A DNA stretch of 16,064 bases, taken from contig QZKK01000248.1 in assembly GCA_003599475.1 (NCBI GenBank), positions 1 to 16,064 on the forward strand. The letters are read 5' to 3'. The position numbers and the translations under genes are program-made. A model generated the notes under the pieces. It saw only the letters and a list, made by a program, of their open reading frames with translations. It ran no database searches and had not been told where the DNA came from. Position 1 is the first letter of the stretch. Every line of letters starts with the position of its first letter. The stretch is from Desulfobacteraceae bacterium. Lineage in GTDB: Bacteria > Desulfobacterota > Desulfobacteria > Desulfobacterales > SURF-15. Of this stretch, positions 1,961-16,064 are shown piece by piece.

Positions 1961-2551
1961 TCACTCCGGGTCGCCTTCGATCAGCCGCCGGCCCAGATCT
2001 TCGGCCTTGACCTGCAACCGGGCGTCTTCGGCCAGGTCCCCGGGCTTATCCCCGGTGCCGTAAACGAACCCGGCAAGTTCGATTCCCACGAACCGGAAGG
2101 CATCCTGAAAACTTCTCAGGGCATTGACGCAGCCGGACATAAAGGGATCCTCGTCGCCGTAACTCATGACGACCGCCGCCCGCTTGCCTCCCAAAGCCCG
2201 GTACCCGTCGGCTCCGAACATGTACCAGCGGTCCATGAAAAGCTTGGTCTGGGCCGACATGGTAAACCAATAGACCGGGCTGGCAATGATGAAGCCGTCA
2301 GCCGCAGCGATCTTGGGATAGAGGACCTGCATGTCGTCATCCTGGACGCAGCCGGGGCGCCCGGCTTTGCGGCAGGAGCCGCAGCCTTGGCAGGCGGAAA
2401 TCTTCAGACCGTTGAGATAAACCGTCTCCACTTCCGCTCCGGCGCTTTCTGCGCCCCTGGTCGCGGCCGAAGCCAGAGACGCGCTGTTTCCCTTCTTACG
2501 GGGGCTGCCCAGCAGCGTCAGCACTCGTTTGACCCGCTTTTTTTCCGCCAT
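1961..2551 (-). CDS. NADPH-dependent FMN reductase / iron-sulfur flavoprotein-like oxidoreductase
   Basis: A 196-residue flavodoxin-fold protein. The FMN-phosphate loop is GSPRKKGNS at residues 15-23, and SPVYWFTMSAQTKLFMDR at 91-108 is the usual flavin-binding strand-loop. Between them lies a compact cysteine motif, C54-x2-C57-x2-C60-x7-C68, like the one that holds a [4Fe-4S] cluster in archaeal and bacterial iron-sulfur flavoproteins (ISF). It probably moves electrons between a pyridine nucleotide or ferredoxin and a small acceptor in the cytoplasm. The start at 2551 is preferred over one 25 codons upstream because AAGGAG lies just before it and homology begins there. The ORF closes with UGA, immediately followed by a dehydrogenase remnant. 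The exact substrate is unknown. Confidence 0.85.
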   Translation of the reverse strand: MAEKKRVKRVLTLLGSPRKKGNSASLASAATRGAESAGAEVETVYLNGLKISACQGCGSCRKAGRPGCVQDDDMQVLYPKIAAADGFIIASPVYWFTMSAQTKLFMDRWYMFGADGYRALGGKRAAVVMSYGDEDPFMSGCVNALRSFQDAFRFVGIELAGFVYGTGDKPGDLAEDARLQVKAEDLGRRLIEGDPE

Positions 2552-2871
2552 GGTTTCTATTCTCCTTCTTTTGGATGAATATCTGTAGATCAACTTCATG
2601 CAGTTCAATAAAAGCTCAGCCGCCAAAGATTACGATTCATCTTAAGTACGCTTATTCTTCATCCTTTTCAAGAACGACTGAAATCGTCACAATCACCTCA
2701 AGTCCGACTCTCCCTGTCAGAAGGGAAGGTGAACGCCCGTCTTCTGGTCCTGTTTTGGCCGATTTTAGTTTGACATTTCCTGTAATTTTCGATAAATAGA
2801 ACTCTTTTGTCTTTTGATTTCGGCAATCGACTGCAGTTTCCAGTCCATGAATCCAAGGAGAGCATCTTGTC
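2552..2871. other. Divergent intergenic region between the flavin reductase and fdhA
   Basis: This 320-bp stretch separates the divergently transcribed flavin reductase (minus) and fdhA (plus). It is more AT-rich than the genes around it and must hold both promoters; only one on the fdhA side could be proposed. Short open frames here have no ribosome site and resemble nothing convincingly. A 17-residue minus-strand frame ending near 2652 looks vaguely like the start of a HicB-type antitoxin, too short to claim. Confidence 0.6.
2770..2798 (+). promoter_or_regulatory. Candidate promoter of fdhA
   Basis: A perfect TTGACA -35 box lies at 2770-2775. The -10 region is poor: either GATAAA at 2791-2796 (15-base spacer) or TAAATA at 2793-2798 (17-base spacer). 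Transcription would start near 2804, leaving a leader of about 68 nt before the ATG. No sigma-54 -24/-12 pair, common for formate dehydrogenase genes elsewhere, was seen. Confidence 0.35.
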
Positions 2872-5637
2872 ATGACCGCAGTGAACAAAATCACAATCAA
2901 CGGTAATGAATTTTCCTTCGAGCCGGGGGAGACCATTTTGGAGGTTGCGCGGCGGAACAGCATCGATATCCCCACGCTCTGTCATCTGAAAGGAACCACG
3001 CCTACGGGCGCATGCCGCATCTGCATCGTCGAAGTGGAGCGCGCAAGAACGCTGGTGGCCTCGTGTGCGGCACCTGCCGCAAACGGGATGGTCGTTTATA
3101 CCGAGTCAGCGAAAGTCGTCAAGACCCGTAGGATGCTCATCCAACTGCTGCTTTCATCCGGAAATCACAACTGTGCGGTTCGCGGATCGGACGGCGAAAA
3201 CTGGACGCAGTTTCAGCTCAGGGTTCAGCAGGAAGACGGCAGCGGAGAACTCTGTCCGGTCTGGGGGGATTGCCGTCTCCAGGACCTCGCCTATCGATAC
3301 CAGGTCTCCGGCGATGTGTTCCCCGCCACCGAAAACCGCTACCCGATGGAGCTTGCCAATCCATTCATCGTTCGCGATTTTTCCCGCTGCATCCAGTGCG
3401 GCCGTTGCGTCCAGGCCTGCAACGAAGTGCAGGTCAACAAGGCCATCAGCTTCGGATACAGGGGGGCTGCAACCAAGATCATTGCGGCTGGAGACCGCCC
3501 CTATGCGGATTCGGACTGCGTATTTTGCGGCGAATGCGTACAGGCCTGTCCGGTCGGCGCCCTGGTGGAAAAGGATGCCCGGTATCGATACCGGCCCTGG
3601 CAGAACCGGAAGGTTCGCACCACCTGCGGTTACTGCGGAGTCGGATGCCAGTTGGACCTCCATGTCGATGACAACCGGGTGATGAAAGTAACCGGTGCAG
3701 AGGAAACCGCTCCCAATTACGGCAGCCTCTGTGTGAAGGGGCGCTTCGGATACCACTTCATCGGCTCTCCGGACCGGCTGAAACGACCGCTGATCAAGGA
3801 AAACGGAAAGTTCAAAGAAGCCTCCTGGGAGGAGGCGCTGAACCTTGTGGCAAGCCGGCTGAAAGAAATCCAATCGAGCCATGGGCCGGACAGCATCGGG
3901 GTCATGACGTCCGCCCGGGTCACCAACGAGGAAAACTACATCGTCCAGAAGTTCGCCCGCGCGGTGCTCAAAACCAACAATGTGGACCACTGCGCCCGCC
4001 TCTGACATGCCTCCACGGTGGCCGGTCTGGCCGCAGCATTCGGAAGCGGTGCGATGACAAACACAATCGCCGATATCGAAAAGGCAAAAGTCATCCTCAT
4101 CACCGGTTCCAATACCACGGAGAATCATCCGGTCCTTTCCACATTTGCCAAAAGGGCGGTGACCCGGAGAGGCGCCAAGCTGATCGTCGTCGATCCCAGG
4201 AGGATCAAAATCTCGACCTTTGCCCATGAGTGGCTCCGTCCAAACCTGGGAACCGATGTAGTCTGGATCAACGGAATGATGCATGTCATCATCGAAGAGA
4301 ACCTCTACGATGCGGAATTTGTCAAAAACCGCACAGAAGGCTTCGAGCAGCTCAAAGAAGCCGTCGAGAAGTACAGCCCGGACTATGTGGAATCGATGAC
4401 GGGCATCTCCTCCGAGCAGATTGTGGAAGCCGCGCGGCTCTATGCCGGCGCCAAACCGGCAAGCATCCTCTACTGCATGGGGATCACCCAGCATGTCAGC
4501 GGAACCGACAACGTGAAATCGCTGGCAAATCTTGCCATGCTGTGCGGGAACATCGGGATCGCGGGCGGAGGCGTGAACCCCCTTCGTGGCCAGAACAACG
4601 TTCAGGGGGCCTGCGACATGGGCGGGCTTCCCAACGTCTATTCCGGCTATCAGAACGTGGGAGATTCAGCCTCCCGGCAGAAGATGGCCAAGGCCTGGGG
4701 GGTTTCAGACCTTCCGGAAAAACCGGGGCTCAAGGTCACCGAGATGCTTCCCAAAGCCCACGATGGAAGCCTCAAGGCGATCTATATCGTGGGGGAAAAT
4801 CCGCTGGTTTCGGACCCGGATCTGAACCATGCGGAAAAAAGCCTGGAAAACCTCGAATTTCTGGTCGTCCAGGATATCTTCTTGACCGAAACCGCTCTAA
4901 AAGCCGATGTGGTGCTCCCATCGCGTTGCTTTGCCGAGAAAGACGGCACCTTTTCCAACACCGAGCGCCGTGTACAGCGGGTCCGCAAAGCAGTGGAAGC
5001 GCCGGGAGAAGCCCGGGACGACTGGAAGATCGTATGCGATATCGCTTCCCGGATGGGGTATCCGATGGATTACGAAAACAGTGAAGCCATCCTGAAAGAG
5101 ATCGCAGCCGTGACCCCTTCCTATGCGGGGATCACCTACGACAGGATCGAATCCGAGGGGCTGTACTGGCCTTGCCCCGACTCCGAACATCCCGGAACCC
5201 CGATTCTGCACGTGGACCGCTTCAGCCGGGGAAAGGGGCTGTTCCATGCAATAGAGTACATCCCGCCGGCTGAGATTGTCGATGAGGACTATCCGCTTTT
5301 CCTGACTACCGGGCGCCTTTTGTATCAGTATCATACCCGGACCATGACCGATAAATCGAAAGACTTAAACGAAGCCGCACCCGAAAGCTTCGTCGAAATC
5401 TCCCCTGAAGATGCTCGAACCTACGGCCTCGGAAACGGGGAAATGGCCGAGATTTCGTCCAGGAGGGGAAAAATCAAGGTCCGGGTAAAGATCTCTCGCA
5501 CGGCGGCTTCCGGAACGGTCTTTGTCCCCTTCCATTACGCCGAAGGCGCCGCGAACAAACTGACGAACGCCGCGCTCGATCCGGTCTGCGGGATTCCCGA
5601 GTACAAGGTCTGCGCGGTGCAGTTGGCGAGGGCATAG
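2872..5637 (+). CDS. fdhA: Formate dehydrogenase catalytic subunit, selenocysteine-containing
   Basis: A 921-residue selenoprotein. UGA at 4003-4005 is selenocysteine 378 in the active-site motif DHCARL-U-HASTVAG; ligand to Mo or W, followed by the conserved His379. Order of domains: [2Fe-2S] ferredoxin (C37, C48, C51, C65), a His/Cys cluster region (H99, C101, C128, C134), two [4Fe-4S] clusters (C173, C176, C179, C183 and C216, C219, C222, C226), the proximal [4Fe-4S] (C252, C255, C259, C287), then the bis-molybdopterin-guanine-dinucleotide catalytic part to the C-terminal FVPFHYAEGAANKLT region. There is no signal peptide, so it is cytoplasmic, of the NAD/ferredoxin- or Hdr-linked type. AAGGAG at 2855-2860 precedes the ATG. 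No beta subunit or accessory gene is adjacent; it converges on the hdr-met operon, whose MvhD could accept its electrons. Catalyses formate to CO2 or the reverse. Confidence 0.95.
4003..4039 (+). promoter_or_regulatory. SECIS element of fdhA (UGA plus hairpin)
   Basis: After the UGA (4003-4005), a GGCC/GGCC stem (4020-4023 with 4029-4032) closes a GGTCT loop at 4024-4028, and ATGC/GCAT (4007-4010 with 4036-4039) can close the base. The loop begins 18 nt after the UGA. Both the GGUCU loop and this distance match the SelB-binding hairpin of E. coli fdhF as I recall it. This directs selenocysteine insertion rather than termination. Confidence 0.8.
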
Positions 5638-5721
5638 AGCGAGAGGGAAAGAGGGATAGAAAATCAGAAGATGAGAAACTGAGAAGTTGAGATTATAGGG
5701 GAAGCAAGAAAATTAAAACGA

Positions 5722-5754
5722 AAAAAGGGAAGGAGGCCATCTCCTTCCCTTTTT
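5722..5754. terminator. Bidirectional intrinsic terminator between fdhA and metF
   Basis: GGGAAGGAG (5727-5735) pairs exactly with CTCCTTCCC (5741-5749) around a 5-base loop. A flanking A-run (5722-5726) pairs with a T-run (5750-5754), so there is a U-tract for transcripts from either side. It serves fdhA from the left and the hdrA-metF operon from the right, about 85 and 70 bases after their stop codons. Confidence 0.85.
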
Positions 5755-5825
5755 GTTTTAAAGACTAGTGATGGCAGAGGACAGTTTTTATTCTTTCCTT
5801 CTGTCCTTCTTTACCTCTTTCCTTC

Positions 5826-6770
5826 TTATTCAACCACAGGTCTCGGCAGCATGCCGGCACGCTCGGCGATCTCGGGCACCCGGTGCTCCCATTCGATGGC
5901 CATCAGGTGGACGCCGGCCACCCCTTTCATCTGCTTGAACTCCTCGATCTGCTCGCAGGCGATCTTGATTCCTTCTTCGGCGGCTTTTCCCTTGCCGGCC
6001 CCCTGCAGCCGTTCGATCAGCGCTTCCGGAACATCCATTCCGGGGACGTTGTTTTTCATGTAACGGGCCATACCGACACTTTTCATCGGAGTGACCCCGG
6101 CCAGGATATGGGCTTTCCCGGTCAGCCCCATGTCGTTTGCCTGACGGATAAACTCCCGGAAGCGGTCCATGTTGTAAATGCATTGGGTCTGGATGAAATC
6201 GACCCCGGCATCGATTTTTTTTGCCAGGCGATGAACCCGCCAGTCGAGCGGGTCGGCAAAGGGGTTTGCAGCGGCCCCGATAAAAAGCCTGGGGGCCACC
6301 TCGATATCTGCCCCTGATAAAAACTTGGCCTCGTCCCGCATCCGCTTGACCATGCAGATCAACTGCATCGAATCGATGTCGAAGACCCCCTTGGCCTGCG
6401 GATGGTCGCCGAATTTCTGATGGTCTCCGGAAAGGCAGAGCATGTTCCGCACGCCGTGCGCATAGACACCCAGGATGTCCGACTGCATGGCGAGCCGGTT
6501 GCGGTCCCGGCAGACCATCTGGAAGTTGGGTTCGAGCCCCTCCTGGATCAACAGCAGACTGGCGGCCCAGCTTGACATCCGGACGACGGCGGTCTGGTTG
6601 TCGGTGATGTTGACCGCATCGACCATTCCCTTGAGGTGGGCGGCTTTCTTCCGGACCTCATCCGCACTCGCCCCGCGGGGCGGACCCAGCTCACCCGTAA
6701 AGGCGAAGTGCCCGGCTTTTAGAACTTTTTCGAGATTGCTCCCCGACTTCAATCCGTTTTGGCTGCTCAT
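5826..6770 (-). CDS. metF: 5,10-methylene-tetrahydrofolate reductase, MetF
   Basis: A 314-residue TIM-barrel flavoprotein of the MTHFR family, which reduces methylene-THF to methyl-THF, or the reverse when acetyl-CoA is being oxidised. The N-terminal FTGELGPPRG carries the catalytic Glu27. DAVNITDNQ (51-59), the LCLSGDHQKFGDHP FAD-binding loop (111-124), and the QTQCIYN and ILAGVTPM barrel strands are all present. The length fits the short form that works with MetV and has no NADH domain. ATG at 6770 is chosen over an upstream GTG at 6785 because the GAGGG ribosome site lies between the two. It is the last gene of the hdrA-mvhD-hdrC/B-metV-metF series and is followed by the bidirectional terminator. 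With Hdr proteins next to it, its electron donor is likely the Hdr complex rather than NADH (inference). Confidence 0.93.
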   Translation of the reverse strand: MSSQNGLKSGSNLEKVLKAGHFAFTGELGPPRGASADEVRKKAAHLKGMVDAVNITDNQTAVVRMSSWAASLLLIQEGLEPNFQMVCRDRNRLAMQSDILGVYAHGVRNMLCLSGDHQKFGDHPQAKGVFDIDSMQLICMVKRMRDEAKFLSGADIEVAPRLFIGAAANPFADPLDWRVHRLAKKIDAGVDFIQTQCIYNMDRFREFIRQANDMGLTGKAHILAGVTPMKSVGMARYMKNNVPGMDVPEALIERLQGAGKGKAAEEGIKIACEQIEEFKQMKGVAGVHLMAIEWEHRVPEIAERAGMLPRPVVE

Positions 6771-6805
6771 CGCACTTTCCCTCACCCCTTCTTTCTACCC
6801 TTTCA

Positions 6806-6896
6806 GCCACCAAGACACGAAGGCACAAAGAAGAGGTTAAAAGTTTAAACTCATATCAAAAATTGGGTAAGCTTCGTGTCATAATGCCTTTGCGGC
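6806..6896. repeat. Dispersed 'ACACGAAGGCACAAAG'-type repeat with inverted partner, metV-metF gap
   Basis: Two related units in opposite orientation lie in the 125-bp metV-metF gap: one at 6806-6830, containing CCAAGACACGAAGGCACAAA, and a diverged one at 6872-6896 reading CTTCGTGTCATAATGCCTTT. They share the exact 9-bp inverted pair GACACGAAG (6814-6822) and CTTCGTGTC (6872-6880). Similar ACAAAGACACGAAGGCAC strings recur between genes in many environmental bacterial genomes; their origin is unknown to me. The second unit runs into the metV stop codon. The intervening RNA could fold and lower metF expression relative to metV. Confidence 0.5.
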
Positions 6897-7576
6897 TAAT
6901 CGATCTTCTTCTTTTCCGGCTTCCTGTACCCCGGCTGGATCAGCGTGCGGGGGACCTGGTCCCTCCATTCCTCGACGGGATGGATCTTTCGGATGCAATC
7001 GAGCCGGCCCTGTTTCGAAAGCCGATCATAGATCATGTACCAGGCGCAGGGCTGATCGGGATCGACCTCGCAGCTCCCCTTGTTGGTCCCCCCGCAGGGG
7101 CCGTTGTAGAGGCCCTTGGCGCACATGGTCACCGGACAGATGCCGCCGGTCCAGCCGAGAACACAGCGCTGGCAGGATCGGCACCGCTCTTCATACCATC
7201 CGACCGCCTGATTGACCGCAAGGCCGCTGGTGTCTACCGCCGGAAAGACCGGTTTCCCGGGAAACCGTTCGGCAAGAAACTGGATCCCCACACCGCAGGC
7301 CATCGACATCAGGGCGTCGTAGGAATCGACCATCTCGTCCAGTTGGGCCAGATACTCCCGGTCGCACTGTCTTTCCACCGTGATCTGTCCGAGTTCGATC
7401 GGATCGTCTTCGAGGCGCCGGGCCATATCGAGCTCGGTGTTCAACACCGTGACTTCCTTTTCTCCGCCGACCAGGCAGACCGACACACAGGTTCCGCAAC
7501 CGACGTTGAGGACCCTTTTATACCCCTTGAGCATCTCTCTGATCTCTTCAAAGGGCTTCCGTTTGGCAACGATCAT
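6896..7576 (-). CDS. metV: Methylene-tetrahydrofolate reductase partner subunit, MetV
   Basis: A 226-residue cysteine-rich protein of the MTHFR C-terminal (zinc-finger-like) family, the partner of short MetF proteins in acetogens and other Wood-Ljungdahl organisms. N-terminal GCGTCVSVC (C27, C30, C34) and C71 and C94 precede the C-terminal cluster region: C132, C135, C138, C147, C152, then GLYNGPCGG with C161, then C169 and C177. This is the family signature and is thought to bind iron-sulfur clusters or zinc. GGAGG four bases before the ATG fixes the start. It lies 61 bases after the hdrC/B fusion and 125 before metF, all on one strand, matching the metFV-hdr-mvhD arrangement of Moorella. 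Role: to connect MetF to its electron source. Confidence 0.88.
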   Translation of the reverse strand: MIVAKRKPFEEIREMLKGYKRVLNVGCGTCVSVCLVGGEKEVTVLNTELDMARRLEDDPIELGQITVERQCDREYLAQLDEMVDSYDALMSMACGVGIQFLAERFPGKPVFPAVDTSGLAVNQAVGWYEERCRSCQRCVLGWTGGICPVTMCAKGLYNGPCGGTNKGSCEVDPDQPCAWYMIYDRLSKQGRLDCIRKIHPVEEWRDQVPRTLIQPGYRKPEKKKID

Positions 7577-7637
7577 CTTTCCTCCAGTTTCCCTGCGGCG
7601 TTTCTATTCCATCGGTGCCGCCGCCGGGTGCGACAGA

Positions 7638-8954
7638 TTACTCCGATTCGGGGTGGAACACGAGCACTTCCTTGAGATCGTCTCCCAGATACGCGCGCTC
7701 TTTGGGCCCCAGCACGCCCAGGGAAAGGCAGATCAGCGTCCACAGATGGACCGTATTCCATGCATGGTCCCGCATATCGGAGAGATCGTGGACCTGGGCG
7801 TGGCAGTTGTGGCACGGCGTGATGCAGTAATCCGCCTTTGTGGCCAGGATCTGCTCGGCCTTGAGCCTCCCGTATTCCCTCCGCTGTTCCGGGTATCCGG
7901 ACTGAAGGAACCCGCCGCCGCCGCCGCAGCAGTAGTTGTTCGAGCGGTTCGGCTGCATGTCGATGAAGTTTTCCTCGCCCACCACCGATTTGACAACGAA
8001 TCGAAGGTCTTCGGCCACCGGGTCCCCGAAGCTCTTTCGAACGAGCTGGCAGGGGTCCTGAACCGTGAACTTGACCTTCAAGTCTTTGTTCCAGTCGGAG
8101 CTTACCTCGAGTTTTCCCTCCCGGATCCACTGGGCATAGTATTGAATGATGCTTTTGATCTCGAAGTTGTAGGGGATGTTGAATTTTTTCAGTCCGGCCC
8201 GGACTGCAAAGAGTTCGTGCCCTCACTCCGTATTGAGCCAGACCTTGCAGCCAAGCTCCTCCACCGCCTTGACCTTGGTCCGTACGATATGCTCCCAACC
8301 CTCATTGTCCGCCAGAAACAGGCAGTAGTTTTCCGCTGCCCACCCTTTGGTCCCGTAGGTCCAGTCGGCTCCGACCTGGTGCAGGATCTTCCAGAGCGGC
8401 ACCATTTCGTCCGGTTCGGTGACCGGCTCCCGCGAGTTTTGATTCAGGAAGAGTTCGGCTCCTTCCTTGTTTACGGGCGCCTCCATCTCCGCAAATTCGG
8501 GTTGAGACTCCCGGTATTCCTCGAGAACGTCTTCCACCACAAACTGGAAATCCTCCTCGTTTGTCCCCATCGCGCTGCATGTGTCATTCCTGAGCGCCAT
8601 GTCGCAGGAGCCGAGAATCCCCTTGGGCCTTTTTTCGCGCGGCCAGGAATTCCGGACATTGAAAACCAGTTGGGGGATATCGATCTTCATCGGACAGACA
8701 TAGATGCAGCGCTGGCACATGGTGCACATCCACGCCCAATTCGAGCTCAAGATCTCCTCATCCAGCCCCAGCGAAGCCATCCGCAGGAATTTTCTGGGGT
8801 CCATATTCTCCAGTCCGGTTGCCGGGCATCCGGACGAACACATTCCGCAGGTAAGGCAGAGGTTCAGGTTCCCGCCGTCCGGCAGGAGCGCCATCACCTT
8901 GTCCTTGAACATGCTCTTTTTTTTGCCTCCGAGTTTGATCGCTTCCTCTCCCAT
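7638..8954 (-). CDS. HdrC-HdrB fusion (HdrD/DsrK-like iron-sulfur oxidoreductase), selenocysteine-containing
   Basis: A 438-residue protein read through UGA at 8225-8223 (Sec244). The HdrC-like N-terminus holds two [4Fe-4S] motifs: C33, C36, C39, C43 and C77, C80, C83, C87. The HdrB-like C-terminus holds one complete CCG motif: C302, C342-C343, C381-x2-C384, the ligand set of the non-cubane [4Fe-4S] cluster in HdrB. The first CCG repeat is degenerate; its conserved TECGH is here NTE-U-GH. Frames on both sides of the UGA are identical, and both halves are needed for the fold. The start at 8954 follows GAGGAG by five bases, and mvhD ends 13 bases upstream. It should carry electrons from HdrA to a disulfide-like or protein acceptor, here possibly MetVF. 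Cys-containing relatives include HdrD and DsrK. Confidence 0.88.
8190..8225 (-). promoter_or_regulatory. SECIS-like hairpin of the hdrC/B fusion
   Basis: Sixteen bases after the UGA (8225-8223), CAGTCC pairs exactly with GGACTG (8206-8201 with 8195-8190) around a GGGCC loop. A further TTT/AAA extension is possible past one mismatch. Position and size fit bacterial SECIS elements, and the GG start of the loop is typical. Confidence 0.65.
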
Positions 8955-8967
8955 AATTTCTCCTCTT

Positions 8968-9393
8968 TTAACTTTTGCCTCGCTTTTCTCTCAATGGATT
9001 GGGGCCCAGTGCCCGGATGCGTTCGGTCATCTCTTTTGCATAGGCGGCAAAGGTGGGGCCTTCGCCGGAGGAGAGATTATACATACGAACGCGGTCCCCC
9101 TCAAGACCGATTTCTTCGAGCATCATCCGGACATGCTCGACCCGCTCGCGGGCCCTGAAGTTGCCCTCGTTGTAATGGCAGCTCCCCTCCAGGCAGCCGA
9201 CGGCATAGACGCCGTCCGCCCCCTTCTGGAACGCCGTAAGCAGGTGGATGACGTCCACCTTTCCGGTGCAGGGAACCCGGATAATCTTTACGTTTGCCGG
9301 ATAGTCGAGTCGCATGGAACCTGCCAGGTCCGCAGCCGAATATCCTCAGTAATCACAACAAAAAGCGATGATTTTCGGTTCGAATTCTGCCAT
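8968..9393 (-). CDS. mvhD: MvhD-type electron-transfer subunit (F420-non-reducing hydrogenase delta), selenocysteine-containing
   Basis: A 141-residue [2Fe-2S] protein that in methanogens and acetogens bridges a hydrogenase or formate dehydrogenase to HdrA. UGA at 9348-9346 is Sec16 in FCCDY-U-GYSAADLAGSMR; relatives read CCNWCSYGGADLAG, so Sec replaces the third cysteine. Other ligand candidates are C12, C13, C42 in RVPC, and C67 and C72 in GCLEGSC. The ATG at 9393 directly abuts the TAA of hdrA, with GAGGAA inside the end of hdrA as ribosome site, so the two are translationally coupled. A caller treating UGA as stop would start at an internal Met27 and lose the cluster-binding N-terminus. 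No MvhA/G hydrogenase is present; the nearby FdhA is the obvious partner (inference). Confidence 0.92.
9316..9348 (-). promoter_or_regulatory. SECIS-like hairpin of mvhD
   Basis: Fourteen bases after the UGA (9348-9346), GGACCT (9331-9326) pairs with AGGTTCC (9322-9316) with one bulged base, around a short GGC loop. It is weaker than the other three hairpins here; an alternative small stem exposing GGTTCC further on is also possible. The protein evidence for Sec is stronger than the RNA evidence. Confidence 0.5.
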
Positions 9394-12300
9394 TTAAGAT
9401 AATTCCTCAGCCAGTAGAGCATCGATTTTACAGATGAGCTGCTCGTTTTCATAGAAGCTTAAGCGGATCGCCTCCCGCGGGCAGACCGCCGTACAAACCC
9501 CGCATCCTCTGCAGAGCGCCTGATCGATTTCGACCTCCCCCTTTTCCTTGTTGAAAGCGGGCACCTGGAAGGGGCAGGACCGCACACAGGTCAGACATTT
9601 CACGCAGTGGTCGGAATCGAGCTTTGCGTTGATTGCAGAAAGCCGGATCTCCGACTTGGAAAGGAAAGTCGCCGCCCGCGAGACGGCTGCCTGGGCTTGT
9701 GCGATCGCTTCCGTGATCAGCTTGGGCCCGTGCGCGGTCCCGCACAGGAAAACGCCCTCCGAGCCCATATCGACCGGCCGGAGCTTCACATGGGCTTCCA
9801 TGAAAAACCCCTCCGCGTTCCGGTTCAGCTTCATGGTGCGGGAAAGCTCTTCGGTATCCTGGGCGACCACGCCTGCGCTCAGCGCCACCAGGTCTGCTTC
9901 GATCTGAAGGTCGCGCTGGAGGATGTGGTCTTTGACCGTCACCCGCAGGCTTCCGTTTCCGGCATCCACAACAGGCGGGGCCTGGGAATCGAAGCGGATG
10001 AAAATCACCCCCTTTTCCCGCGCCTCGGTGTAGTAGTCTTCCAGCAGCCCGTAAGTCCGAATGTCCCGGTTGAGGATAAAGACCTGGGCCTCCGGATTGA
10101 CCTTTTTGATCGCAAGTGCGTTTTTGACCGCAGACTGGCAGCAGATCCTGGAGCAGTTCGGATTCTTGTCGTTTCTAGACCCCACGCACTGGATCATCAC
10201 CACAGTCGATAGATCGGACGCCCCCTTTTTATCCAATCGGTCGCCCAGCTCGACCTGAGTCAACACCCGGTCGTCGGTCCCGTATGCGTACTCGGTGGGG
10301 ACGTATTCGGTCGCTCCTGTGGCAACGATGATGATTCCGTGATTCAGCGTGCGGGGATCGTCTTCGCCCGGAACCGAAACCTCGGTGGTGAAGTTTCCCT
10401 TGTATCCGGTGAATCCGACGATTTCGGCGCCTTTCAAGACCTCGATGTTTCTTTCGGATCCGATCTCGCCGATCAGGTTTTCAAGGTAGCCGGCAATGTC
10501 TTTTCCTTCGATGGTATGGTGCAGCTTCCGCGCCATGCCCCCCAGCTCGGGCTCTTTCTCGATCAGAAAAACCTTGAACCCCTGCCGCCCCAGACCGAGG
10601 GCTGCGTTCATGCCGGCGATGCCGCCGCCGATCACAAGCGCCTGTTTGTTTACCGGAATGAGCCTTTCCTTGAGCGGATAGAGCGTTTCGGCCCGGGCGG
10701 CCGCCATCCGCACCAGGTCTTTTGCCTTTCGCGTGGCGGTTTCCGGATCCTTGGAATGGATCCAGGAATTCTGATTCCGGATATTGGCCATCTCGAACAA
10801 ATACTTGTTCAATCCGCACCCTTCCAGCGTCTCCTGGAAGATCGCCTCATGGGTTTTGGGGGTGCAGGCCGCCACCACCAGGCGGTTCAGCTTGTGCTCT
10901 TTGATCTTCTGCTTGATCTTTTCCTGCGTGTCCTGGCTGCAGGTAAAGAGGTTTTCATCGGTAAATACAACGTTGGGAAGAGACGCCGCGTACTCCTTTA
11001 CCCCCGGCACATCCACGATGCCTCCGATATTGATGCCGCAGTTGCAGATGAAAACCCCGATTCTGGGATCTTCTTCGGACACATCGATCTCATCCGGGAT
11101 CACCGCCTTGCGGGTGTCGGTGTGCCTGGCTTCCGTAAGAGCCGCCCCGGCAGCCCCTGCCGCCGCACTGGCTTCGGTGACGGCCGCAGGAATATCCTTC
11201 GGCCCCTGGAAGATCCCGCAGGTGTAAACGCCGGGCCGCGAGGTCGATACCGGCGAAAACGGGTCGGTCACGGCGAAGTTGTATTTTCCGAGATCGATCC
11301 CCAGCCGCTTTGCAAGCCCGATTCCCGATTCGGTGACCTCGAGGCCGACCGAAAGGACCACCATGTCGAAGACTTCCTCCTGTATTGTGCCGGCGTCATC
11401 GACCCAGTGCAGTTTCAACTGGCCTGTCTCATGGATCTCTTCGATCGTGTGGATCCTCGCCTTTACGAAGCGGACCCCTTCCTTGTCCTTTGCGCGCAGA
11501 TAGTACTTCTCGTAGTCTTTGCCGAAGGTCCGGATGTCCATGTTGAAGATGGCGCAGTCGAGGTTCCCGTGGGCGTGCTCCTTGGCGATCATGGCCTCCT
11601 TGACCGCGTACATGCAGCAGACTGAAGAACAGTATCCGTTCCCGCAGCGGTTGGTGTCTCTTGAGCCCACGCACTGGAGCCAGGCGATCTTTTTGGGGTC
11701 TTTCCCGTCCGAAGGCCGCTCGAGATGGCCCAGCGTGGGGCCTGAAGCGCTCAGGATCCGCTCGAACTCAAGGCTTGTCAGGACATTCGGGTTGCTCTTC
11801 CAGTGATAAAACGGCTCCATTTTTGCAGGATCGAAGGCGTCCGCCCCCTGGGAGAGGATCACCGATCCCACCCGAAGCTCTTTTTCCACCGGCTCCTGGG
11901 TGTGGTTGACAGCCCCTGCAAGGCAAGCCTTCACGCACTGGTAGCATTCCGAACAGATGCCGCAGCGGAGGCACCGATCGGCCTCCCGCTTGGCCTCGGC
12001 CTCATCGTATCCGAAGGAGACCTCCAGGAAATTGCACTCCCGAGCCTTCGGATCGAGGCAGCGGACCGGCGTTCTCGCTTTTTTCTTCTCAAGAGAGGTA
12101 TCCGGTTTTTCGTACTCCCAGCTCTTTTCCCTCCCCTCCTGCAGATCCATCCCGTTGATGTACCGGTGGATGCTTTCGGCGGCTTCCTTTCCGCAGGATA
12201 CCGCATCGACCACCGATTTGGGGCCGTAGAAGACATCGCCGCCTGCAAAAACCCATCCGAGCGGCGTCTGCAATGTCTTGGGATCGGCCGACAGTCCTCC

Positions 12301-13833
12301 CCTTTGCGTCACGGGAATTTTCTGCCCTTCGGCGAACTCCAGATTGGCGCTCTGGCCGATGGCCACGATGATCGTATCTCCGAAATACGACTGGCATGCG
12401 TTTTCATCGTATTGGGGGTTGAAGCGTTTATTCGCGTCGAAGACCTCCGTACAGGTCTTGAATTCGATTCCTGAAACGCGCCTTTTTTTATCGATGAAAA
12501 ACGCCTTGGGACCGAAGCTGTTTACGATCTCGATATCGCCTTCGAGGGCCTCCTGGATTTCATGCTGCCAGGCCGGCATCTCGTCTCTCTTCTCGAGACA
12601 GATCAGGGTGACCTTTTCAGCCCCTTTCCGCTTCGCGGTCAGGGCCACATCGATTGCCACATTGCCGCCGCCGATGACAAGCACTTCCTTTCCGATTGGG
12701 ACCTCTTTGCCCATGGCGGCATCGCGCAGGAAATCGACCCCTTGAAGAACACCGACCGCGTCTTCGTTTTCAACCCCGAGCCTTCGCCCGCCGTGGAGGC
12801 CGACCGCGAGAAAGACAGCGGAAAATCCGTCTTTCTTCAGGCTTTCGAGCGTGATGTCTTTTCCGAAAGTCACCCCGGTTTTAATGGTGACCCCCATCTT
12901 TCGGATCACTTCGATTTCGTCTTGAAGGATCTCTCTCGGCAGCCGGTATTCGGGGATGCCGACGGCCATCATCCCGCCTGCAACCGGAAGTCTTTCGAAG
13001 ATGGTTACCGGATAGCCCTGCCTTGCCAGGGAATATGCGGCCGTAAGCCCGGCGGGTCCGGACCCGATCACGGCGACTTTTTCTTTGCGGGCTTCGGCGA
13101 CTTCCGGGATATAGAAGTCTTGCGAGTCTCGCTCGAAATCGGAAAGAAACCGGTGCAGTTCACGAATCGCCAGAGGCTGGTCCACATCGTTTCGGGTGCA
13201 GATCCCCTCACACGGATGATGGCAGACCCTGCCGCAGATACCCGGGAAGGGGTGCTCCTGCTTGAAAAGCTCGAGCGCTTCCCGGTATTTCCCCGCATTG
13301 ATCAGCGCGATATACCCCTGGATGCTCACATGGGCCGGGCAGGTCGCCTTGCAGGGGGCGGTCCCGCGTTTGCTGATCCCGAAAGCCCCGGGAATCGCCT
13401 GGGGGTATTGCTTAAAGATGGCCTTCCGCTTGGAAAGTCCCTCGTCGTAATCGTTTGAAAGCTCGATCGGACAGACCTTTGCGCAGTCTCCGCAGCTTGT
13501 GCACTTGGAAAGATCCACAAAGCGGGGGGCCTGCCGGACCTTTGCGGTGAAGCTTCCGGGCTCGCCTTTTAAATCCAGCAGTTCGGTATTTGTGAGCAAC
13601 TCGATGTTTAAATGCCGGCCGACCTCGACCAGTTTCGGTGAGATCACTCACATGGCGCAGTCGTTTGTGGGAAACGTCTTGTCCAGTTGAGACATCAGCC
13701 CGCCGATTGCCGAAGACTTCTCCACCAGATAGACGTAGTAACCGGATTCCGCCAAGTCCAGAGCGGACTGCATGCCGGCGATACCTGCACCCACCACCAT
13801 CACGGATCCACTCTTTTTCGCTTTCTCAGCCAT
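9394..13833 (-). CDS. hdrA: Large HdrA-type flavoprotein with inserted GltD-like module, selenocysteine-containing
   Basis: A 1479-residue fusion. First HdrA module: FAD-binding GAGIAG (15-20), TFPTNDCAM-U62-VISPKLVEVGRH (UGA 13650-13648 where relatives have Cys) and a [4Fe-4S] cluster (C111, C114, C117, C121). Inserted GltD-like module, about 150-560: N-terminal clusters (C161, C165, C200, C204, C208, C212), FAD site GSGPAG near 257 and NAD(P)H site GGGNVA near 388. The first HdrA then resumes with CLRCGICSECYQCVKAC (C621-C637) and CVGSRD...CC near 720-740. A second HdrA module (about 922-1390) has its own FICNCG domain, FAD site GGGIAG near 1070 and CVGSRN...CC. Two [4Fe-4S] ferredoxin motifs close the protein (about 1408-1457). 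ATG at 13833 follows AAGGAG; the TAA touches mvhD. It should be the electron-splitting hub, with at least three flavin sites and a pyridine-nucleotide site. Large HdrA-type (HdrL) proteins are known from sulfate reducers. Confidence 0.92.
13615..13650 (-). promoter_or_regulatory. SECIS-like hairpin of hdrA
   Basis: Fifteen bases after the UGA (13650-13648), CTGGTC (13632-13627) pairs with GGCCGG (13620-13615), with two G-U pairs, around a 6-base loop GAGGTC. The loop contains GGUC, and its position is close to that of the fdhA element. Confidence 0.65.
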
Positions 13834-14083: not shown

Positions 14084-14112
14084 TTGACAAATCCGGCGAA
14101 ACGATGTGTATT
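14084..14112 (+). promoter_or_regulatory. Candidate promoter of the GH13 gene
   Basis: TTGACA at 14084-14089, a 17-base spacer and TGTATT at 14107-14112 (four of six matches). Start of transcription would be near 14119, which agrees with translation from the ATG at 14189 and argues against the far upstream TTG at 14084. Confidence 0.4.
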
Positions 14113-14188
14113 CATACAAATGGATCGGGATGATTATCCAAATTCCACAAAAAGAACGCTCGCTCCGAATATCAAGGGAAATCCCGTG

Positions 14189-15721
14189 ATGCGCATCCGA
14201 AGGACCGGGCACCCTTTGATCTATGAAATCAATACGCGCGTTTGGGTGCACGAGTTCGGAAAGAAGACCCGAAAAGAACCTTTCACCATAGACGATATCC
14301 CGGATTCTGCCCTGGATGAAATCACCGACCTCGGTTTCGATCTTGTCTGGCTGATGGGCGTCTGGCAGACGGGGGAGCTCGGGAAAACGATCGCCCGACG
14401 ATATCCGTCTCTTCAGCCGCAGTATCAAACGGTCCTGCCCGACGCCACATCCCGGGATATCCTGTCCTCTCCCTATGCGGTGCAGGATTATCAGGTTTCT
14501 TCCGGGCTGGGGGGTCCCAAAGCTTTGGCCGGGCTGCGGCGGCGCCTTGCGCGGCGGGGGATCGGATTGATCCTGGACTTTGTCCCCAATCACACGGCCT
14601 GCGATCATCCCTGGATCTTTTCCCATCCGGAGTACTACGTGCAGGGCAATGAAGAATCCCTGGAAAGGGAGCCGCAGAATTTTTTCCAGGCCGAGACGGT
14701 CTCAGGAAGCAAAATCATCGCCCATGGCCGGGATCCGTATTTCCCGGCGTGGTCCGATACGGCCCAGCTAAATTACCGGCACCGGGGAATGTGCACTGCC
14801 ATGAAAAACCGCTTGATGAAGATTGCGGAACAATGCGACGGCATCCGGTGCGACATGGCCATGCTGGTGTTGAAAGAGGTGTTTGCCCGCACCTGGGGAG
14901 AGCGGGTGGACGCAACCCATACGCAGGCCCCCGACGGCGAGTTCTGGACGGAGGCGATCGACCGGGTGCGGAAACGGTTCCCGGATTTTATCTTTATCGC
15001 TGAAGCCTATTGGGGGCTCGAGCGTCAACTGCAGTCCCTCGGATTCGATTTTACCTACGATAAGACCCTTTATGATTTGCTTCGCGATCAGGGGACGGCA
15101 GAGGTCCGCGAACACTTGCGCACCGATGTGGAATTTCTCGCAGGCTCGGTCCATTTCCTGGAGAACCATGACGAGCTTAGGGCCGCGCAGGTGTTTTCAA
15201 AGGATCGGCATCAGGCCGCGGCCGTGATCTGCTACACGACACCTGGAATGCGCTTTTTTCACGAGGGTCAATTGGAAGGGCGAAAGATCAGAATCCCCGT
15301 TCAACTGGCACGGAGACCCGATGAGCCCTGCGATCCGCAGATTCGCCGCTTCTACGAGAGACTCCTTCAGAAGCTGCAGGCGCCCGATTTTCACGGCGGC
15401 GCCTGGAAGCTGCTCGAAGCCAAGCTCGCCCGGCCGGGAGATGACGCCTGGAAGGATATTCTCATTTACGGCTGGCGGGGTGATGGAGATTCGCATCTGG
15501 TGGCGGTCAACTACGCCCCCCGACACGGCCGTTGTCATGTGCCCCTCGATATCCCTTATCCCCATTGCAGAAACGTCCTGTTCACCGATCAGTTCAGCAA
15601 TCTGTCCTTTCAGCGCTCCTGCGATACCCTCCGGGATCAGGGGCTTTACCTCGAAATGGCCCCATTTCAATTCCACCTCTTCAAGTTGACCTTTCAAACA
15701 TCCGATCCGCCAGGGGAGTGA
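14189..15721 (+). CDS. GH13 alpha-amylase-family glycoside hydrolase or glucosyltransferase
   Basis: A 510-residue TIM-barrel enzyme with all four GH13 signature regions: DFVPNHT (130-136), GIRCDMAML with Arg220 and nucleophile Asp222, FIAEAYW with acid/base Glu272, and FLENHDE with His327 and Asp328. It begins HPLIYEINTRVWV, as many cytoplasmic GH13 proteins do, and has no signal peptide. The end (about 420-505) looks like the small C-terminal beta domain. ATG at 14189 is chosen because AGGGA lies nine bases before it and homology starts there; an in-frame ATG at 14120 and a TTG at 14084 are unlikely. The active site is intact. Substrate and product (alpha-glucan, trehalose or a maltosyl compound) cannot be named. 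It is divergent from hdrA and appears functionally unrelated to it. Confidence 0.88.
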   Translation: MRIRRTGHPLIYEINTRVWVHEFGKKTRKEPFTIDDIPDSALDEITDLGFDLVWLMGVWQTGELGKTIARRYPSLQPQYQTVLPDATSRDILSSPYAVQDYQVSSGLGGPKALAGLRRRLARRGIGLILDFVPNHTACDHPWIFSHPEYYVQGNEESLEREPQNFFQAETVSGSKIIAHGRDPYFPAWSDTAQLNYRHRGMCTAMKNRLMKIAEQCDGIRCDMAMLVLKEVFARTWGERVDATHTQAPDGEFWTEAIDRVRKRFPDFIFIAEAYWGLERQLQSLGFDFTYDKTLYDLLRDQGTAEVREHLRTDVEFLAGSVHFLENHDELRAAQVFSKDRHQAAAVICYTTPGMRFFHEGQLEGRKIRIPVQLARRPDEPCDPQIRRFYERLLQKLQAPDFHGGAWKLLEAKLARPGDDAWKDILIYGWRGDGDSHLVAVNYAPRHGRCHVPLDIPYPHCRNVLFTDQFSNLSFQRSCDTLRDQGLYLEMAPFQFHLFKLTFQTSDPPGE

Positions 15722-15734
15722 AAAGGAAGAAAGG

Positions 15735-16064
15735 TTACCAAACGAGAAGGGAGACCCCCGAAAAAAGCAGCAGACCGGCGACAATTTGATGGAATCGTCT
15801 TTCACCGATCCGGGCATGCGTCTTGTGACCCAGGACGGTCCCCAAAACGAGCGCCGGAGTGAGGACAAGGGCGAGCTCGATCGTTTCCGGAGTCAACAAT
15901 CCGGCTCCTGCATAAAGGCAGATGCGCCACGAATAATCGATCGAAAACAATCCGATCAGAGATGCGCGCATGATCTCTTTTCTCCTGATCCGATAGGAAA
16001 GATAGGCGACGAAGGCCGGTCCGCTGGTACCGAACATGCCGCCGAAGATGCCGCCGAGGGTTCC
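15735..16064 (-). CDS. TauE/SafE-family permease, C-terminal part (runs off window)
   Basis: The last 109 residues of a membrane protein whose start lies beyond 16064. The visible part opens with the glycine-rich GGIFGGMFGTSGPAF, the second repeat motif of the TauE/SafE family, then a charged loop (SYRIRRKE) and about three hydrophobic helices ending at residue VW. The family moves organic or inorganic anions such as sulfite, sulfoacetate or sulfonates across the cytoplasmic membrane; this member's substrate is not evident. Its stop codon lies 13 bases from that of the GH13 gene, so the two are convergent, and no intrinsic terminator is visible between them. Confidence 0.82.
   Translation of the reverse strand, partial: GTLGGIFGGMFGTSGPAFVAYLSYRIRRKEIMRASLIGLFSIDYSWRICLYAGAGLLTPETIELALVLTPALVLGTVLGHKTHARIGERRFHQIVAGLLLFSGVSLLVW

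Follow-up and report, generated by a model that had tools for sequence, protein, structure and literature searches.

Operons that encode several selenocysteine (Sec)-containing subunits of the Hdr type have been known in Deltaproteobacteria since 2006, when Zhang et al. described multi-selenoprotein glpC-hdrA-frhD operons, among them glpC-hdrA-frhD-frhG-frhA (PMC1794560), and Sec forms of FdhA, HdrA, FrhD (MvhD) and GlpC (HdrCB-like) have been in print from that date. Methanococci possess Sec HdrA, VhuD and FdhA, and a 2026 review gives the motif UGH for a GlpC-like Fe-S oxidoreductase and mentions an operon of four selenoprotein genes (PMC13188914). Desulfococcus multivorans has Sec HdrA, MvhD and FdhA (PMC5109826). 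Moorella thermoacetica and Sporomusa ovata carry HdrCBA-MvhD-MetVF (PMC9430772), and a marine Chloroflexi cell HdrABC-MvhD-MetVF with a fused HdrBC (PMC5736913). Here we analyse a stretch of 16,064 nucleotides from a Desulfobacteraceae bacterium, probably a sulfate reducer of Desulfobacterales type (contig QZKK01000248.1; the window), in which hdrA, mvhD, hdrCB (an HdrC-HdrB fusion), metV and metF follow one another on the minus strand with gaps of 0, 13, 61 and 110 bp, and fdhA lies on the plus strand, convergent with metF and separated from it by 188 bp between ends. Judged from gene order and homology, hdrA-mvhD-hdrCB-metV-metF is likely, with good confidence, to be an operon whose products form an Hdr-linked methylene-tetrahydrofolate (methylene-THF) reductase of the Moorella/Sporomusa type with three Sec subunits, a fourth Sec residing in the convergent fdhA. 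What this analysis adds is the metVF-linked triple-Sec version, together with a cysteine (Cys) revertant that retains a fossil selenocysteine insertion sequence (SECIS); multi-Sec hdr operons were already known.

The resemblance to the glpC-hdrA-frhD-frhG-frhA operon extends to the joint presence of Sec GlpC, HdrA and FrhD, to the occurrence there of hdrA-hdrA fusions and to the UGH motif, which the window also has. The window differs in having metV, metF and a convergent fdhA, and no FrhG or FrhA hydrogenase gene was found among its 11 open reading frames (ORFs) scanned with Pfam. With Moorella and Sporomusa it shares the gene set, here on one strand, and the GltD insert in HdrA (numbered to 1487 in Moorella, 1479 residues here); unlike in those organisms, HdrC and HdrB are encoded as a fusion in place of separate hdrB and hdrC genes, and the fusion carries Sec (PMC9430772). 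Desulfobacterium autotrophicum HRM2 has Sec HdrA-GltD (HdrL), HdrD4 (of the HdrCB type), MvhD and FdhA as well as selABCD, but the consulted text of its paper does not describe a metVF-linked triple-Sec cluster (PMC2702500). Nor did a literature search, covering mainly the main texts of openly accessible papers, bring up a description of a metVF cluster with three Sec genes. An earlier sequence-only reading had found it striking that every link of a formate-MvhD-HdrA-HdrB path carries Sec; with the operons of 2006 and the methanococcal Sec HdrA, VhuD and FdhA in print (PMC1794560, PMC13188914), the arrangement is less so.

Inside each of the four long frames there is a single TGA and neither TAA nor TAG; the closing codon is TAA or TAG in every case (921 codons in FdhA, 1479 in HdrA, 141 in MvhD and 438 in HdrCB). 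The internal TGAs stand at FdhA 378, HdrA 62, MvhD 16 and HdrCB 244, where relatives have Cys or Sec, so the in-frame UGA at a family Cys site that the sequence-only reading had proposed for each gene holds up by frame check and by comparison with relatives. Its statement that these families include selenoproteins is borne out in print (PMC1794560, PMC13188914). In structure 9SFI/9T1S, a complex using H2/formate and, by its chain names, from a methanogen, a sequence match places a non-standard residue X at the equivalents of HdrA U62, MvhD U16 and FdhA U378; these X residues we take to be Sec. The complex differs from the predicted one in lacking MetVF, and no such residue appears in the HdrB stretches displayed.

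If the UGAs were instead stops, the genes would be decayed or split and the downstream ORFs would be separate genes. Translation under table 11 does break hdrA, mvhD, hdrCB and fdhA at the UGA, as had been anticipated, and nothing else speaks for stops. Homologues ending naturally at the UGA had been named as what would count against Sec; at the HdrCB codon the best match was TGA in 80 of 80 kept genome loci (80 of 575 relatives), and the site was Cys in all 120 listed protein-database relatives (120 of 2440 found). That database is poor in Sec forms, since annotation breaks such genes at the UGA: the best database match to HdrCB has 74% identity and Cys, and genomic DNA yields a Sec relative at 87%. 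Conservation of the protein on both sides of the UGA, together with hairpins that accompany Sec and are nearly always absent with Cys or serine (Ser), leaves the chance of simple stops negligible. All four genes are, on this evidence, almost certainly selenoprotein genes decoded by the ordinary bacterial route of UGA, a stem-loop for SelB and tRNA-Sec. In HdrA, MvhD and HdrCB, Sec presumably takes the place of a Cys that ligates an Fe-S cluster or has a redox role, and in FdhA we take it to be a metal ligand.

The predicted stem-loops begin 12 (FdhA), 15 (HdrA), 14 (MvhD) and 16 (HdrCB) bases after the UGA, close to the 14-18 bases first suggested. In related loci the complete stem was present in 213 of 222 distinct Sec sequences (FdhA 12/12, HdrA 65/66, MvhD 55/55, HdrCB 81/89 distinct sequences), as against 2 of 95 with Cys or Ser (Cys: HdrA 1/13, MvhD 1/46, HdrCB 0/2; Ser, all MvhD: 0/34). 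These counts cover rows above set identity limits and omit 89 low-identity HdrA rows, the majority of which carry some other residue there; part of the Cys and Ser rows are paralogues. Within the stems, conservation at third codon positions is 0.97-1.00 for FdhA (9 rows), HdrA (29) and MvhD (27), compared with mostly 0.4-0.9 outside them, where a single position of HdrA (1.00) and a single one of MvhD (0.96) are exceptions. The HdrCB stem shows compensatory exchanges, with GC in 60 and TA in 25 sequences at one pair. At the predicted minimum free energy (MFE), a G is among the first two loop bases in 9/9 FdhA, 25/29 HdrA, 26/27 MvhD and 81/81 HdrCB sequences; the usual HdrA loop is AGGU. The hairpins are significant because of this conservation and not because of MFE. 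Folding energy was tried as evidence and set aside: an equal or lower MFE occurs at 10% (FdhA), 41% (HdrA), 56% (MvhD) and 46% (HdrCB) of the same gene's codons. An Rfam scan at low threshold gave a SECIS family match for fdhA only, below the gathering score.

In order to see how the Sec state is distributed, we used 80 loci reached through HdrCB (80 of the 575 relatives found) and the surroundings of MetF at 100 of 150 listed places in same-class genomes. The triple-Sec cluster with metVF recurs in many Desulfobacterales-like genomes, and three other loci (L077, L106, L110) contain all four Sec families, the FdhA of L106 being merely 47% alike. Of the 79 distinct HdrA-MvhD pairs that could be scored, 56 are next to MetV: 38 of these, the window included, are Sec-Sec with an adjacent Sec HdrCB, nine are Cys-Cys without HdrCB, and one (L087) is Cys-Cys with a Sec HdrCB. 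The two states agree in 56/56 pairs beside MetV, with no mixed pair, and the Sec state has been kept although TGA to TGC or TGT takes one base change. Another 11 MvhD genes next to MetV, of which 10 are Sec and 1 is Cys, had no HdrA site that could be scored. Away from MetV, 21 of 23 pairs combine HdrA-Sec with MvhD-Cys (two of them with a Sec HdrCB) and the remaining 2/23 are Cys-Cys. A quick tree of the 56 rows needs just two state changes, and the HdrA/MvhD agreement is therefore mostly shared descent.

Selection for Sec along the whole electron chain, as the sequence-only reading had put forward, is thus supported in part, by the concordance of HdrA and MvhD beside MetV, and weakened by the two tree changes that explain this, by Sec HdrCB in other contexts and by MetV and MetF, which have no Sec; as the only explanation it does not hold up. 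The competing account is that Sec is kept subunit by subunit through local site chemistry and that co-occurrence reflects shared descent; it is compatible with a Hdr-linked methylene-THF reductase and competes with the selection claim alone. Two tree changes account for all 56 rows, HdrA-Sec stands with MvhD-Cys in most pairs away from MetV, HdrCB is Sec without MvhD or MetV or beside an MvhD with Ser in eight loci, and in L087 HdrA and MvhD are Cys while HdrCB is Sec. The absence of any discordant pair among the 56, despite the single-base route to Cys, pulls the other way, and we put the chances of subunit-wise maintenance at about even.

In the L087 locus (G250), mvhD retains an intact SECIS stem following the Cys codon (45 bases after the codon were inspected) and hdrA 4/7 pairs. 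The mvhD stem is a fossil SECIS, the mark of a recent Sec-to-Cys change. In L161, HdrA belongs to a Cys branch outside the Sec clade, yet has all seven pairs of the Sec-type stem; from this complete stem, the Sec state may be older still than the Sec clade. Other arrangements also occur. The order metV-metF-hdrA-hdrA-mvhD-hdrCB, with Ser at the Sec/Cys site of MvhD, is found in L013, L016, L035, L041 and L051, where HdrCB is Sec, and in many of L103-L176, where the HdrCB site lies outside coverage. In four loci (L116, L123, L125, L168), a distant MetF (32-33%) and another HdrA-GltD-HdrA gene occupy the opposite strand and diverge from the metVF run; the site of this additional HdrA is Sec in three and outside coverage in L123.

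HdrCB was also examined on its own. Sec is present in 109 of 111 distinct HdrCB genes, in a sample picked by similarity to the Sec form and so biased towards it, and eight of the Sec genes follow an MvhD with Ser. A Sec HdrCB of Desulfospira (L042) has no HdrA, MvhD, MetV or MetF match within its 21-kb locus; parA, parB and an ispH-ubiA fusion come after it, and L018 has ORFs of like lengths. By inspection, Sec244 takes the place of the second Cys in the CxxC of the first CCG domain, which is degenerate; in the second such domain all five Cys are preserved. Mapping Sec244 onto solved HdrB by profile alignment was given up, as the alignments displayed cover the second CCG domain only, though the 8RVV HdrB match as such spans both. 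Matches to pox-virus F1L in the profile search (E 0.24-0.54) were taken as chance.

What the genes do together may be read from the minus-strand run itself. The sequence-only reading had treated the locus as a formate chain and overlooked metV and metF; these two complete the run, and its catalytic end is therefore likely methylene-THF/methyl-THF. We infer one complex of the HdrA, MvhD, HdrCB and MetVF products. In such a complex, MetF-MetV would turn methylene-THF into methyl-THF and back, electrons would travel between MetV and HdrA through the Fe-S protein HdrCB, and HdrA would contribute a GltD-like site for NAD(P)H along with a flavin that has a bifurcation-type Glu/Lys pair, MvhD providing the link to a further partner. 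HdrCB, HdrA and MvhD would thus join MetVF to NAD(P)H and one or two other partners, perhaps by confurcation, with Sec presumably making electron flow close to equilibrium faster or more readily reversed. The pair in question is E691/K745, read off the alignment; a second, E1195/K1237, was assigned by inspection only. Moorella HdrA likewise has an extra TrxR/Fd part and a GltD insert, and Glu/Lys pairs mark bifurcating flavins (PMC9430772). Sporomusa pull-downs tie MetF or MetV to HdrA, HdrB and MvhD (PMC9430772).

FdhA would probably serve the same Wood-Ljungdahl methyl branch at its opposite end, the CO2/formate step; its gene ends at most 323 bp from a convergent MetF, MetV or HdrCB gene in 11 other distinct loci (of 180 fetched). 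This recurrence also speaks for the formate-MvhD-HdrA-HdrB path of the sequence-only reading, in which FdhA oxidises formate and electrons pass from it through MvhD and HdrA to HdrB on the pattern of methanogen Hdr-Fdh complexes, with MetVF there only incidentally. 9SFI/9T1S is such a complex with X at three equivalent sites, and Hdr-linked FdhBA clusters have been reported in Desulfobacula toluolica and a Chloroflexi cell (PMC5736913). In contrast to HdrBCA-MvhD-FdhBA systems, whose fdhB and fdhA share an operon with mvhD/hdrA, fdhA here lies on the opposite strand and no FdhB was found among the 11 window ORFs scanned with Pfam; moreover, the N-terminus of FdhA resembles NuoG, as it does in NAD(P)-linked enzymes, and metVF sit within the co-directional run itself. 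The path is one possibility, an improbable one in our judgement.

Several observations weigh against the Hdr-linked methylene-THF reductase with three Sec subunits. The Sporomusa Hdr/MvhD subunits could not be purified in a tight complex with MetVF (PMC9430772), and the fused HdrCB departs from Moorella. Eight of the 46 Sec-Sec pairs beside MetV have no adjacent HdrCB, and 49 of the 109 Sec HdrCB genes lack both an upstream MvhD and a downstream MetV. Third codon positions of HdrCB (70 rows) show no separation between the stem (0.70-1.00) and its surroundings (0.37-0.96). Finally, in a survey of relatives' genomes, tRNA-Sec was over the cut-off in just 12 of 23. In favour of Sec decoding, the same survey placed SelA over the cut-off in 20, SelB in 19 and SelD in 21 of the 23 genomes, and selA, selB, selD and tRNA-Sec all together in 10; 14 control genomes gave SelA 1, SelB 2, SelD 2 and tRNA-Sec 5.

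Table 1. Genes and predicted SECIS elements of the window, with flanking genes.
Feature	Position	Strand	Product and Sec codon	Remarks
fdhA	2872..5637	+	921 aa, Sec378, UGA 4003-4005	NuoG-like N-terminus; TIGR01591 5.3e-272
fdhA SECIS stem-loop	4018..4034	+		GGUCU loop; Rfam SECIS_3 match 4000-4058, E 5.5e-10, 53 bits, below gathering score 63
metF	5826..6785	-	methylene-THF reductase, no Sec	GTG start; PF02219 1.9e-38
metV	6896..7576	-		PF12225 5.1e-34
hdrCB fusion (HdrD/GlpC/HmcF-like)	7638..8954	-	438 aa, Sec244 in NTEUGHE, UGA 8223-8225	
hdrCB SECIS stem-loop	8190..8206	-		compensatory pairs in relatives
mvhD (frhD/vhuD)	8968..9393	-	141 aa, Sec16, UGA 9346-9348	PF02662 1.3e-49; adjoins hdrA, zero gap
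mvhD SECIS stem-loop	9317..9331	-		
hdrA	9394..13833	-	1479 aa, Sec62, UGA 13648-13650	TrxR/Fd module and inserted GltD-like domain, then full HdrA; Moorella methylene-THF reductase type (HdrL-like)
hdrA SECIS stem-loop	13615..13632	-		
Flanking gene	1961-2626	-	NADPH-dependent FMN reductase-like protein	
Flanking gene	14084-15721	+	alpha-amylase-family enzyme	
Flanking gene	15735-16064	-	TauE/SafE-like protein	continues past window edge

A broader proposal, which we advance tentatively and on balance doubt, is that the Hdr-linked methylene-THF reductase of Desulfobacterales works as a selenium-dependent machine and that a common ancestor acquired Sec in the subunits that carry electrons. HdrA and MvhD would have gained or lost Sec as a pair, and HdrCB, serving several partner enzymes, would have a Sec of its own, so far little studied, at a degenerate CCG cluster site. 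Sec and Cys forms both exist in nature, L087 with its fossil SECIS among them, and are variants for probing the role of Sec in Hdr complexes. The electron exchange of methylene-THF reductase is among the less settled steps of the Wood-Ljungdahl pathway, and if the Hdr-linked enzyme of sulfate reducers does require selenium in three of its subunits, selenium supply may affect carbon turnover there.

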